The notes under the pieces: model-generated
What the model was told of the DNA's origin: nothing
The model's input: the letters and a program-made list of their open reading frames with translations, nothing else
Databases searched by the model: none
Translations under genes and position numbers: made by a program
In this document: one piece after another, positions 27,156 to 36,726 of the stretch
Numbering within the stretch: the first letter of the stretch is position 1
Layout: every line of letters starts with the position of its first letter
Assembly: GCA_028823395.1 (NCBI GenBank)
Contig: JAPKBO010000005.1
Coordinates: 1 to 49,310 of the forward strand
Direction: 5' to 3'
DNA length: 49,310 bases
From: Planctomycetota bacterium
Lineage (GTDB): Bacteria > Planctomycetota > UBA1135 > GCA-002686595

Positions 27156-27611
27156 GGGTTTCGGGGGTGGGGTTGGGCGCCGGGAAGCGGAGAGGGTTAG
27201 GCCTCTGCAGCCTGACCTCCTGGCCTCTCTTTGGGCCTGTCTTTGAGCCTGTTTCCAAAGCTGCTCTCGGCACCGAATTCGGGGCAACACACTACCGCGC
27301 AACGGGACGCGAAGACAGATCGCCAGGGTGTAAATTTGGTCTAAGTTCGTCCCTATTGGGGGTCAGATTCGGGCTCATCGAAATACACCGCGAGAATGCA
27401 CCCGTGCCGTATTTCATGCCCTCTAAGCCCCTTAGACAAGGACATTGAGAGGCTTTGCAAGGTAATACAGCCCGAGGGCCATACCCTCCACCCTTTCCCC
27501 ACCCCGTATGGGGAATGCGATGCACAAAACGCCGAGTTGCATCCCCACCCTTAAATCCCTATCCCAGTCTCATGGATTCGGTGTCTCAGCCGGTCCAAGG
27601 GGGAATTGACG
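27156..27611. promoter_or_regulatory. 456-base divergent intergenic region upstream of the sigma/CHAT operon and thiolase operon
   Basis: This is the only gap over 300 bases. It lies between divergent operons and must contain both promoters. It is less GC-rich in parts than its surroundings, with 'TTGAGA' near 27446 and 'TAATAC' shortly after, but their spacing of about 12 is too short for a normal promoter pair. A small perfect inverted repeat CCCC-GTAT-GGGG lies at 27502-27513, within a longer TTCCCC...GGGGAA arrangement. No gene or tRNA is visible; ORF-track frames here are short and unconvincing. Confidence 0.45.
27597..27603 (+). promoter_or_regulatory. Ribosome binding site deciding the sigma factor start
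   Basis: AAGGGGG lies 8 bases before GTG 27612 but only 2 bases before the TTG 27606 used in the ORF track. The spacing favours the GTG. Confidence 0.6.
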
Positions 27612-28190
27612 GTGGAAGAGCATCTAATCGTACAAGGACTGCGTGACCGCGAAGAGGAAGCCGTAAAGGTCTTTCTCGAGCGGTACCGTTCACTGTTCTA
27701 CCACTGCATAGGCCACTTCGAGTCGGATCCCGGCGCAAGGGAAGATCTCTACCAGGACCTGGTGGTCTACGCCCTTGAAAGGCTGGACCGTGGCACCTTC
27801 GATCCCGAGAAGGGCTCTTTCGGGACTTGGCTGTACCGCGTGGCTTGGTGCCGCTCTGTCGACCTCAAGCGCCGCCAAAGTGCGCGCAATCGGCCGGGCC
27901 CTGCCAGCGGGGGAGACGAGGTTCCCGATAGAGCAGATGAAACTCCTGGCCCGGATGAGCGCGCAGGGACCGGTGAAATCGGGGACATGGTGCGCTCCGC
28001 CATGGGCCAGCTCGCCCCAGAGGAACAAGACCTCTTGAATCTGAGGTTCGTGGATGCCCAGACCATGGGCTCCATTTCCCGCAGCCTTGGAATCTCACTG
28101 GAGCAGACCAAGTACCGGCTGCGAAAGGCCGTCGTAAGCATGCGCAAGGTGCTCTTGAACCAATACGCATATGAGGAGGTCACGGAGTGA
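27612..28190 (+). CDS. ECF-type RNA polymerase sigma factor
   Basis: 192 residues from GTG 27612. Region 2 covers about residues 10-90 ('AREDLYQDLVVYALERLD', 'FGTWLYRVAWCRSVDLKRR'). After a 35-residue polar linker, region 4 covers about 128-185 with the helix-turn-helix 'QTMGSISRSLGISLEQTKYRLRKAV'. There is no sigma region 1 or 3, which defines the ECF group. It directs RNA polymerase to a private regulon, usually including its own operon. The GTG start of the anti-sigma gene overlaps its TGA stop by 4 bases, so the two are probably translated in fixed ratio. Its release would switch on the downstream CHAT protease gene if autoregulated, which is an inference. Confidence 0.92.
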   Translation: MEEHLIVQGLRDREEEAVKVFLERYRSLFYHCIGHFESDPGAREDLYQDLVVYALERLDRGTFDPEKGSFGTWLYRVAWCRSVDLKRRQSARNRPGPASGGDEVPDRADETPGPDERAGTGEIGDMVRSAMGQLAPEEQDLLNLRFVDAQTMGSISRSLGISLEQTKYRLRKAVVSMRKVLLNQYAYEEVTE

Positions 28191-29323
28191 AGGCCTCAGA
28201 TCACCTGCCCAACAGCCCATTTCCCAAGATTGGGAAGAAATCTGCCCCCCAGGACGGCTGGGCTGCGGAAACGAGGTCAGCTATGGACTCTCTAAACCAA
28301 GGAAGAGGACCCCTGCCTGACGGGCGGGATGATCCCAACGTCACCGAATTGCTTGCCCATTGGGATGAACTCCCCGAAGAGGGCCTCGCCAACATCACGG
28401 CACATCCGGTACACGGAGCGCGGCTGGAGTTGCTCCGTGCGGTAGACGATTGGCTTGATGGCCGGACCGCCAGCTCCGGCAGTTGTCCCTCAGCAGAGAC
28501 TCTCTACGACTTCTCCAAAGGCCCCGGCTATGCGCTGCTCGACCGCGAGCACCAGGGTGCGGTACTCGACCATCTGACCGAGTGCGCCGAGTGCGCAGAC
28601 CTCGTGGGTTCATTGGAGTCTTCCCCACCGGTCCCCTTGGACTGGTCCCCGCCGGGGCATTCAGATGCGAGCGACACCGATCCGAGTCTCTTCTCTCGGC
28701 CAAAGCCTTGGGGGATGCCGCAGCGTCCGCACCGGCCGGTCCCCATCCAGCTCCTGCGCCGCCTGACCCCCATCGCCGCCGCCATGGCAGCCCTCGTCGG
28801 TGGCTTGATGCTCTTCCAGGGAGGAGAGGGCCAATCAAATCTGCCGGCCTACCCGCTTCTGCGCGGCAGCGCCCAGGGCAGCCTCCTCTTCCCGCGCGGA
28901 CCCGTACTGCTCGCATCGGAGGATCAGGGTCTCCTCTTCGAAGTGAATCCAGTTGCCGAAGCACAGGGCTATACGATCATCTTGCGCGCCCATGCGGGTG
29001 GCGCCTTTGCCGAGGGCAGCCGCGTAACGCAGCTCAGCGGCGACACACCTGATTTGGCGCTCGGCCAGGTACTGCCCGTAGGTCACTACACCTGGGAAGC
29101 CCACGCCACGGTGAACGGCCTGGAACAGCCCCTAGGCGAGCGAGATTTCGAAGTACTTCATAACGACTCCTACCTGCAAGCTCTCAATGAGGAGCAGGAC
29201 GTGCTTGAGCGCGTCAGGTCTCTGCACGAGGCCGGTTATTGGACCGATGCCCGTGCGGCAGCTCGCCGCTTGCCTCCCAGTAGCGAACGTGATTCGTACC
29301 TGGGTTCCAACCCGGGGCGCTAG
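28187..29323 (+). CDS. Single-pass zinc-type anti-sigma factor with extracytoplasmic beta domain
   Basis: 378 residues from a GTG that overlaps the sigma stop. The cytoplasmic part ends in a zinc-binding H-x3-C-x2-C motif ('DHLTECAECADLV') with an upstream Cys in 'SGSCPSAETLYD', the ZAS pattern of anti-sigma factors. One transmembrane helix follows ('LTPIAAAMAALVGGLMLFQ', about residues 185-205). The C-terminal part of about 170 residues is strand-rich and ends in a fibronectin-like 'PVGHYTWEAHATVNG', then a helical tail. By position and motif it should hold the sigma factor at the membrane. The large outer domain could sense a ligand or be the site of proteolytic triggering. The N-terminal 90 residues are polar and without recognised motif. 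Confidence 0.8.
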   Translation: MKASDHLPNSPFPKIGKKSAPQDGWAAETRSAMDSLNQGRGPLPDGRDDPNVTELLAHWDELPEEGLANITAHPVHGARLELLRAVDDWLDGRTASSGSCPSAETLYDFSKGPGYALLDREHQGAVLDHLTECAECADLVGSLESSPPVPLDWSPPGHSDASDTDPSLFSRPKPWGMPQRPHRPVPIQLLRRLTPIAAAMAALVGGLMLFQGGEGQSNLPAYPLLRGSAQGSLLFPRGPVLLASEDQGLLFEVNPVAEAQGYTIILRAHAGGAFAEGSRVTQLSGDTPDLALGQVLPVGHYTWEAHATVNGLEQPLGERDFEVLHNDSYLQALNEEQDVLERVRSLHEAGYWTDARAAARRLPPSSERDSYLGSNPGR

Positions 29324-31860: not shown

Positions 31861-31905
31861 TCCCTCTGGGGGGCAGTGTGGAATGATTTTCCGTTTCTAG
31901 GCCCT

Positions 31906-31924
31906 GGGGACTAAAGCTAGCCCC
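31906..31924 (+). other. Hairpin between CHAT gene and the downstream small gene
   Basis: GGGG-A-CTA / TAG-CCCC with an AAGC tetraloop makes a seven-pair stem with one bulged A. No T-run follows, so it is not a standard terminator. It could mark mRNA processing between the CHAT and small secreted protein genes, or be chance. Confidence 0.3.
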
Positions 31925-31970
31925 ACGCCGGATCCGATAGAGGGGGGGTCAACGGACAACAACCGCTGAC

Positions 31971-31975
31971 AGGAG
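31971..31975 (+). promoter_or_regulatory. Strong ribosome binding site of the small secreted protein gene
   Basis: AGGAG lies 6 bases before ATG 31982. A clear Shine-Dalgarno is uncommon in this window and supports this gene being real and well translated. Confidence 0.65.
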
Positions 31976-31981
31976 TGAGAC

Positions 31982-32560
31982 ATGTTCACAACCGCCCTCT
32001 GCGCCGCCCTCTTCATCCAAATCCCCACCCCCTGCGACTTGCCCGAAGGTCTCGAGCAGGCCCAAGTGGAGATGCTGATCCAGGTAAACGAGAACCACTT
32101 CGCCATTCACAACCTCTCCTCCCTACCCCAGGTCCTGGTGGTTGGAGAAGAGGAGCTAGGTGCCACGGGCGCTGCACGGGTCGAGCCCGGCGAGTCCTTG
32201 ATCTACCCCTTCCCGCGCGGCGCTGCCGATGCCCTTTTGTTCGACGTCATCGCCTTGGCATCGGACACCTGGCGCAACACCGGCGCCCTGGAAGTCGCTC
32301 GTGTCCGCCAAGCCGATGGAGGATCCCTTTGGATCCAAAACGCCCAGAGCTTCTCCCTGGGTTGGACGAGTGAACGAGGAGAACTGAAACACGAGCGGCC
32401 CGTAACGGGCCTCTTGCCAGCGGCCTTGATTGCCGCCCATTCCGGACTGCAGGACTATGAGGCATTGGCCAGCGCGCACGTGCCTGTCCCTATCCCGGTG
32501 GACGACAAGAAAGGTGGCGGACCTCCCGTTGTGGAGGACGAAGTGTTGCCTCCGGTGTGA
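31982..32560 (+). CDS. Small secreted protein of unknown function, last gene of the sigma/CHAT cluster
   Basis: 192 residues. A short hydrophobic start ('FTTALCAALFIQIPTPC') looks like a signal peptide. The body is about 140 residues of mixed strands with no recognised motif ('MLIQVNENHFAIHNLSS', 'EPGESLIYPFPRGAADALLFDVIAL'). The C-terminal 25 residues are low-complexity, with 'VPVPIPVDDKKGGGPP'. It follows the CHAT gene by 121 bases, in the same direction, and is closed by an intrinsic terminator 48 bases after its stop. Its proximity makes it a candidate partner, ligand or substrate of the CHAT protease, but nothing in its sequence shows this. It could also be an independent gene with its own promoter in the 121-base gap. 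Confidence 0.75.
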   Translation: MFTTALCAALFIQIPTPCDLPEGLEQAQVEMLIQVNENHFAIHNLSSLPQVLVVGEEELGATGAARVEPGESLIYPFPRGAADALLFDVIALASDTWRNTGALEVARVRQADGGSLWIQNAQSFSLGWTSERGELKHERPVTGLLPAALIAAHSGLQDYEALASAHVPVPIPVDDKKGGGPPVVEDEVLPPV

Positions 32561-35424: not shown

Positions 35425-36726
35425 TCAACGTCCCCTACGCCCGCGCTCACCGGACGCCCCACGCCGGGCTCCACCCCGGCCTCGGGGTCCACCACCACCT
35501 CGGGGGCCACCACGACCTCGTGGGCCGCCACGACCGCGGGGTCCACCACGACCTCGTAGACCGCCACCACCACGGCGTCTGGATCCACCCGTGCTGCGAC
35601 GTGAACTGCTGCTCCTACGGGATTCGCCCTCATCACGCCGGGGCTCGTCCTCGCTTACCGATTCCGTCCGAGGGCGGTAGCCGCGGGGTGATCCCCCTCG
35701 CGAGGGCCCCTCGGGGGTCCACTCATCCTCCAACTCCTCGGCTGATTCCAAACGTGCAACCTGCCGGCGGCGCGGTGTATCCAAAGGTTCAAGGGCCTGC
35801 TCCTCGTCTGCCAAGTCGAGCAACCCCTCCACCTCTTCCCGAGAGAGCGGACGCCACTTGCCGGCGCGCAGACCACGGGCACTCAAGGGCCCGATATCCA
35901 CCCTCGCCAGGCCCACAACCTTGAAGCCGACGTCCGCAAATACACGACGCACTTCCCGGTTGCGCCCTTCGCGCAGGGTCACGAGCAGTACGGAAGAAGA
36001 TGCGGACCGGCGACGAATCAAGATGCGCGCACCGCCGGTACGGCCATCTGAGAGGTACACGCCCTCGCGCACCTTCTGGATGGCTTCGTCGTGAATGCGT
36101 CCGTGCAAAGTAACGCGGTAGGTCTTGGGGACTCCGTAACGCGGGTGAGCCACGCGTTGGGCAAAATCACCATCGTTGGTGAGCAGGATCAGGCCCGTGC
36201 TCTCCTCGTCCAAGCGCCCCACGCTGTAGATGCGACCCTTATCGGGGTCGGTGATCAGATCAATGGCGCGCGGGCGGCTCTCACTGCGCTCGTTGGTGCA
36301 GAGCACCCCCGCAGGCTTGTTCAAAACGTAATAGCGACGCGAGGCCCCCTCCGGGCGCAGCGGCGTGCCATCCACTTCGACCGTCTGCTCGAAGGGATTG
36401 ACCTTTGTGCCCAACTCGGACACGGGCATGCCATCTACGGTGACCTTGCCCTGTTCGATCAGGACGTCACAGGCACGGCGTGAGGCCACGCCGTGATCGG
36501 CAAGATACTTGTTGAGCCGCACCAGCGGGTCGGCTGACGCCGACTCATGTGCAGAGGAAGAGCTGGCCGCCGGCCGGCGTACGCTCACCTTGCGGGGCCC
36601 GCCTCTGGCTCCACGCCCACGCCCTCGACCGCCACGAGCACCGCCGCTCGAGCGGCGCGAACTCGCACCACGGGTTCCCGATCCTGTTCTTGACGATCGT
36701 CGCGATCCTTCTCTTCGTCCACGCAC
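35425..36726 (-). CDS. RluB/RsuA-type 23S rRNA pseudouridine synthase with RGG-rich tails
   Basis: 433 residues from a GTG start. The core is the usual S4 RNA-binding domain (about residues 68-115, 'VRLNKYLADHGVASRRACD') plus the RsuA-type catalytic domain, with the nucleophile Asp173 in 'SVGRLDEESTGLILLTND' and 'REGRNREVRRVF'. It converts uridine to pseudouridine in rRNA, most likely in the 2605-type site of 23S rRNA. What is odd is about 60 Arg/Gly/Ser-rich residues before the core and about 110 after it, the last part containing five six-residue repeats of type RGRGGP. Such tails bind RNA weakly and promote condensation in other proteins. It is 17 bases after manA. Confidence 0.9.
   Translation of the reverse strand: MRGRREGSRRSSRTGSGTRGASSRRSSGGARGGRGRGRGARGGPRKVSVRRPAASSSSAHESASADPLVRLNKYLADHGVASRRACDVLIEQGKVTVDGMPVSELGTKVNPFEQTVEVDGTPLRPEGASRRYYVLNKPAGVLCTNERSESRPRAIDLITDPDKGRIYSVGRLDEESTGLILLTNDGDFAQRVAHPRYGVPKTYRVTLHGRIHDEAIQKVREGVYLSDGRTGGARILIRRRSASSSVLLVTLREGRNREVRRVFADVGFKVVGLARVDIGPLSARGLRAGKWRPLSREEVEGLLDLADEEQALEPLDTPRRRQVARLESAEELEDEWTPEGPSRGGSPRGYRPRTESVSEDEPRRDEGESRRSSSSRRSTGGSRRRGGGGLRGRGGPRGRGGPRGRGGPRGGGGPRGRGGARRGASGERGRRGR
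35467..35556 (-). repeat. Five in-frame 18-base repeats coding RGRGGP-type units
   Basis: Three perfect RGRGGP units are followed by RGGGGP and RGRGGA near the C-terminus of the pseudouridine synthase. Codons differ slightly between copies. Such arrays change copy number easily. Confidence 0.8.

Follow-up and report, generated by a model that had tools for sequence, protein, structure and literature searches.

An orphan gene in the window, the whole 49,310-nucleotide stretch of Planctomycetota DNA analysed here, is strictly associated with the gene of a TPR-CHAT protease, and comparison of its homologues indicates that selection on its product acts mainly on a 28-residue C-terminal tail. By analogy with the MucE-AlgW pathway, the orphan may be a dedicated exported partner whose tail signals through the TPR-CHAT protease, a membrane anti-sigma factor and an ECF sigma factor, a proposal whose chances are about even. 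The features on which this account draws are collected in Table 1.

Table 1. Positions of the genes, promoters and other elements of the module within the window.
Feature	Position	Strand	Basis
Sigma-operon promoter TTGCAWC-N16-TATYCC	27537..27565	+	Conserved
ECF sigma factor, 194 aa	27606..28190	+	PF04542/PF04545; TIGR02937 1.2e-20
Membrane anti-sigma factor with Fn3-like outer domain	28187..29323	+	C100-H129xxxC133xxC136 zinc-binding-type motif, TM ~193-211
TPR-CHAT protease, 843 aa, with N-terminal hydrophobic export/anchor segment	29329..31860	+	PF12770 5e-31; His711/Cys756 dyad
GGAATGATTTTCC, imperfect palindrome upstream of many orphan promoters	31880..31892	+	
Sigma-28-type orphan promoter CTAAAG-N17-CCGATA	31911..31939	+	Class before 52/55 homologues
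Ribosome binding site CAGGAGTGAGAC ahead of orphan ATG	31970..31981	+	AGGAG, well spaced
Orphan gene, 192 aa protein, predicted to be exported	31982..32560	+	ORF with ATG start and homologues
Divergent beta-sandwich core, model residues ~29-138	32066..32395	+	AlphaFold2 model m2001b4fae5ec
Conserved C-terminal tail AHVPVPIPVDDKKGGGPPVVEDEVLPPV, 28 residues	32474..32557	+	Family conservation; low-confidence in model

The orphan protein

The original prediction had described the orphan as a secreted protein with no recognised domain, encoded behind a strong ribosome binding site. The ribosome binding site is a good one, and the lack of a domain was borne out: searches of the protein returned zero matches in Pfam, NCBIfam or PADLOC, and a Pfam search with 54 homologues gave nothing meaningful. 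The protein is 93% identical in two congeneric genomes and approximately 19-42% identical in distant ones; the congener identity, together with the homologues in distant genera, rules out a chance or overlapping reading frame, and by this comparison the gene is genuine. The suggestion that it represents a new family is likewise supported.

The predicted signal peptide is likely present, though atypical. The N-terminus is strongly hydrophobic in 54/54 homologues, with a best 11-residue mean hydropathy of at least 1.53 in every one, but a lysine or arginine at residues 2-6 is seen in just 9 of them.

Structure prediction and remote-homology searches had been recommended for the orphan. AlphaFold2 models the core as a confident beta-sandwich, with pLDDT mostly above 90. 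When compared with PDB structures, the core had no match at E≤1e-3, and a known fold was rejected, as there were only weak beta-sandwich matches, of which the best had an E-value of 0.011; no sequence relatives were found in the PDB. The core must have some role as well, since nearly all genomes retain it.

Association with the TPR-CHAT gene

Homologues of the orphan occur in 57 of the 81 genomes of the host's family, as a single copy in each; 56 were detected with a profile built on the initial 17 homologues, and one more (G012) with a wider profile. A further 73 genomes from the same order gave no convincing match, and among 392 genomes sampled across the phylum the matches fell in the host's family alone. 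A single-sequence scan with the orphan protein matched only the two congeners. The TPR-CHAT protease of the window was found in 59 of the 81 family genomes and nowhere else in the order (search at E≤1e-20). As far as the searches extend, both proteins are restricted to the host's family.

Within that family, both genes are present in 56 genomes, the orphan alone in 1, the CHAT gene alone in 3 and neither in 21 (Fisher p 3e-15, calculated over related genomes with no phylogenetic correction). In the sole orphan-only genome (G065) the orphan stands at the start of a contig, and the three CHAT-only genomes (G090, G092 and G023) are all incomplete or cut. Furthermore, two genomes with neither gene (G019 and G063) contain the sigma gene of the module and its promoter, so some of these absences may be assembly gaps.

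The original prediction had placed the orphan behind a CHAT protease gene and held that homologues found widely without a CHAT or sigma neighbour would speak against a link between them. The upstream gene is a CHAT family member by its PF12770 match, and His711 and Cys756 are present in 51 of 51 sequences. A same-strand CHAT gene lies upstream of the orphan in all 48 loci for which upstream DNA is available: a hand tally places it within the fetched DNA in 46, the window included, and about 11 and 15 kb upstream in G006 and G034. At seven further loci the contig breaks off immediately before the orphan. Only two loci are unlinked, both in the genus with tail-only genes described below, and these genomes still carry CHAT. 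The pattern that would have counted against the link to CHAT and sigma thus did not appear, and the neighbourhood claim is strengthened. Gaps of approximately 1 to 15 kb do occur between CHAT gene and orphan; order and strand persist across them. A gene family common to these gaps was not seen, since the genes in those inspected by eye look unrelated and lie partly on the opposite strand.

The C-terminal tail

The tail had been described as being of low complexity; in evolution it is the most conserved segment of the protein. Among 37 sequences dereplicated from 54 homologues, mean pairwise identity is 0.40 for the tail (the last 28 residues) versus 0.21 for the core, and tail identity exceeds core identity in 96% of pairs. 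The best-conserved part of the family is the pattern HVPV..P...PP....LPPV-COOH, in which the H, P, P and L of HxP...P...L are invariant and the V and final PP almost so, with conservation reaching its maxima at HVP and at the extreme C-terminus. Basic residues are frequent in the middle of the tail; some tails have no lysine or arginine there, and no basic residue is invariant in the tail alignment. In the AlphaFold2 model, the pLDDT of the tail is approximately 60, and the tail is probably disordered.

The exact C-terminus is not absolute, because the tail of G079 runs on past LPPL, and two genera alter it while keeping the module. In these genera, g62 (loci L093, L094 and L091) and g32 (L033, L077 and L096), the tail is strongly altered and CHAT homologues are still found in the genomes, which provides a natural test of whether tail and receptor change together. 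As for other C-terminal tails in the window, a pseudouridine-synthase-like gene at 35425-36726, read by eye, ends in an RGG-rich one.

G091 and G012, both from a single genus, carry an orphan gene that has shrunk to 59 and 64 codons, respectively, with the hydrophobic N-terminus fused almost directly to the tail. Both tail-only genes occupy the same syntenic site, apart from the CHAT operon, and the sigma, anti-sigma and CHAT matches of both genomes all lie on a different contig. Their flanks hold glycolate-oxidase-like and carbon-nitrogen-hydrolase-like genes (ORFs read by eye), and the flanking DNA is merely 67-78% identical, approximately, over longer blocks. The orphan promoter and the signal segment are retained in both genomes. 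The tail-only genes look like the outcome of selection on the tail, not of decay. They also point to a peptide of about 28 residues, which could be synthesised and assayed directly.

Promoters of the orphan and the sigma operon

A loose form of the orphan promoter, CTCAAG/CTAAAG-N16/17-YCGATA, lies 13-61 nt ahead of 52 of the 55 orphan genes, where 0.016 occurrences would be expected per 160 nt, and the strict form precedes 41 of the 55 versus a mean of 0.005 in shuffles. The consensus for sigma-28 is TAAAGTTT-n11-GCCGATAA (PMC2859248), and the orphan promoter, CTMAAG-N16/17-YCGATA, falls in this FliA/WhiG class with a spacing 1-2 nt longer than that of E. coli. A FliA/WhiG-type sigma factor is found in all 81 genomes, above the cut-off in 79. 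The promoter class is also found in genomes without the module. Among the loci at which it occurs (L116, L117, L123, L131, L135, L147, L150, L155, L159, L160 and L162), the genes, as read by eye, include pilin-, GGDEF-, CheA-, MsrA-, glycosyl hydrolase- and signal-peptidase-like ones; some other matches to the sigma-28-type pattern fall within coding sequence. Upstream of the orphan -35 element in many genera there is a GGAA-N-TTCC imperfect palindrome, GGAATGATTTTCC in the window, which may be an operator.

The sigma operon has a promoter of a different kind. Its strict form, TTGCAWC-N16-TATYCC, has 15 matches in the 81 genomes, 14 of which, assigned by genomic position or by inspection of the downstream ORF, stand before the sigma gene of the module. 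This near confinement suggests autoregulation of the ECF sigma operon and a small regulon. Their distinct promoters suggest that expression of the orphan and of the ECF operon depends on different sigma factors.

Two simpler arrangements were considered and rejected. The orphan is not a plain fourth gene of the operon, as it has its own conserved promoter, which is kept where the orphan is separated or unlinked. Nor does it appear to be controlled by the ECF sigma factor of the module: its promoter class is absent before the sigma genes, bar one loose match with divergent spacing, and is present in genomes that lack the module.

The partner proteins

The dyad of the TPR-CHAT protease is invariant, and its N-terminus is hydrophobic in 44 of 46 homologues; the protease is therefore likely to be active and to be exported or anchored. 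The predicted anti-sigma factor gave no match in a Pfam search. By its sequence it is of the ZAS type, possessing HxxxCxxC, an upstream cysteine and then a single transmembrane segment, for which residues 193-211 are the best hydrophobic candidate. HxxxCxxC is present in 32 of 41 homologues, and C100, H129, C133 and C136 are kept at 81-86% over the family, some members of which lack these cysteines. The outer domain is Fn3-like by structure matches.

A possible role for the orphan

Together, the four genes would form an envelope module composed of the ECF sigma factor, the membrane anti-sigma factor, the exported, caspase-like TPR-CHAT protease and the orphan. In the proposed mechanism, the orphan would be transcribed from its own sigma-28-type promoter and exported, and would then present its working part, a probably disordered tail ending in LPPV-COOH. 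The receptor of the tail would most likely be the CHAT protease's TPR array or, alternatively, the anti-sigma outer domain; the TPR array is proposed because some TPR domains bind C-terminal peptides. Binding would trigger or gate cleavage of the anti-sigma factor, thereby freeing the ECF sigma factor. The sequences themselves show the module and its co-inheritance, the conserved tail, the tail-only genes and the two promoter classes, whereas export, the binding partner, the direction of the effect and the sigma factors that read the promoters are inferred. Counting against this reading are the tails that depart from the usual C-terminus, the atypical signal peptide, the retained core and the lack of a PDZ match in the protease.

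An activator, a substrate and an inhibitor are inseparable by sequence, and the pattern of conservation is no less compatible with a C-terminal signal that is recognised than with a substrate that is cleaved. An activating role is ranked above the other two because conservation is concentrated at the C-terminus and HVP and not at a cleavable site. The orphan might instead be a substrate of the CHAT protease, as the original prediction had suggested, and be cut near or within its tail such that the tail peptide or the core becomes the active product. This is rather unlikely but deserves weight: the strict partnership with an intact CHAT, the frequent basic residues in a probably disordered tail, and the tail-only versions, which could be pure substrate tags, would all be accommodated. 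Yet the middle of the tail has no strictly conserved basic residue resembling a P1 site, the positions that are most conserved lie elsewhere, and the anti-sigma factor, encoded in the same operon, is already an obvious candidate substrate. Less probable still is an inhibitory or buffering role, in which the tail would hold the protease off until stress displaces the orphan. Co-inheritance and tail conservation would fit inhibition equally, and with a promoter of its own for the orphan the cell could adjust the threshold, although nothing in the sequence separates inhibition from activation, and three genomes have CHAT with no detected orphan, albeit all three assemblies are incomplete or cut.

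A very improbable explanation is that the orphan belongs to the envelope or the cell surface, that its tail serves for sorting or anchoring, and that its link to the module is incidental, through shared localisation. C-terminal motifs are a common form of sorting signal, and the promoter class of the orphan also precedes genes that look envelope-type, such as the pilin-like and signal-peptidase-like ones. However, a sorting signal would sit on many proteins, whereas of 20 genomes searched with a profile of the tail, 13 were tail-positive, each with a single real location. Besides the orphan itself, the 20 genomes gave weak, scattered matches and no second copy of the tail, and the sole extra match below E 0.01 (in G018) was a spurious frame; a widespread tag shared by multiple proteins, of the PEP-CTERM or LPXTG kind, was rejected on these grounds. 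Sorting would also leave the co-occurrence with CHAT unexplained.

Signalling by the tail, the preferred reading, can be extended to a relay of two sigma factors, in which a factor of the sigma-28 class turns on a secreted protein, the C-terminal peptide of this protein acts as a specific ligand on the envelope TPR-CHAT protease, and the membrane anti-sigma factor is cut by the protease to free the ECF sigma factor. This extension is tentative and, taken as a whole, somewhat unlikely. If true, it would represent a peptide-gated, extracytoplasmic CHAT protease that is independent of CRISPR and unrelated to DegS and AlgW.

Relation to known systems

Release of sigma factors by envelope proteases is known mainly with HtrA/PDZ proteases. 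In Pseudomonas aeruginosa, the C-terminal peptide of MucE activates AlgW, which cleaves the anti-sigma factor MucA (PMC8545111, PMC3819740). The MucE-AlgW-MucA-AlgU pathway resembles the proposed one in its small envelope protein, its C-terminal peptide and its protease that cuts an ECF anti-sigma factor, and the orphan is, like MucE, a small protein, of predicted export, with a conserved extreme C-terminus. AlgW, however, is an HtrA serine protease, the PDZ domain of which binds the C-terminus, whereas the partner here is a cysteine-type protease in which Pfam shows TPR and CHAT alone, with no PDZ domain found. In addition, the MucE promoter depends on AlgU, while that of the orphan is sigma-28-type; the likeness is one of analogy, with no sequence relation claimed. 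Similarly, in the DegS-RseA-RpoE system of E. coli an envelope protease that targets an anti-sigma factor is started by C-terminal peptides, but there the signal comes from mis-assembled outer membrane proteins and not from a dedicated protein, and the protease is unrelated.

The TPR-CHAT architecture of the protease is shared with the type III-E CRISPR system (Craspase/CASP), in which the TPR-CHAT protein Csx29 cleaves the sigma inhibitor Csx30 and the sigma factor is an ECF-like one, CASP-sigma (PMC10028731). Csx29 is activated by RNA and forms part of a CRISPR effector, whereas no CRISPR gene was seen beside the module. Unlike in the Csx29 system, moreover, the protease here has a hydrophobic N-terminus, and the anti-sigma factor sits in the membrane and carries a zinc-binding motif together with an Fn3-like outer domain. 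A literature search did not find CHAT together with an ECF sigma or anti-sigma factor outside CRISPR, and the TPR-CHAT proteases that it turned up were all CRISPR-associated. If the proposed role is correct, this chromosomal, family-wide module would give CHAT proteases a housekeeping function in signalling, along with a ligand that can be tested.
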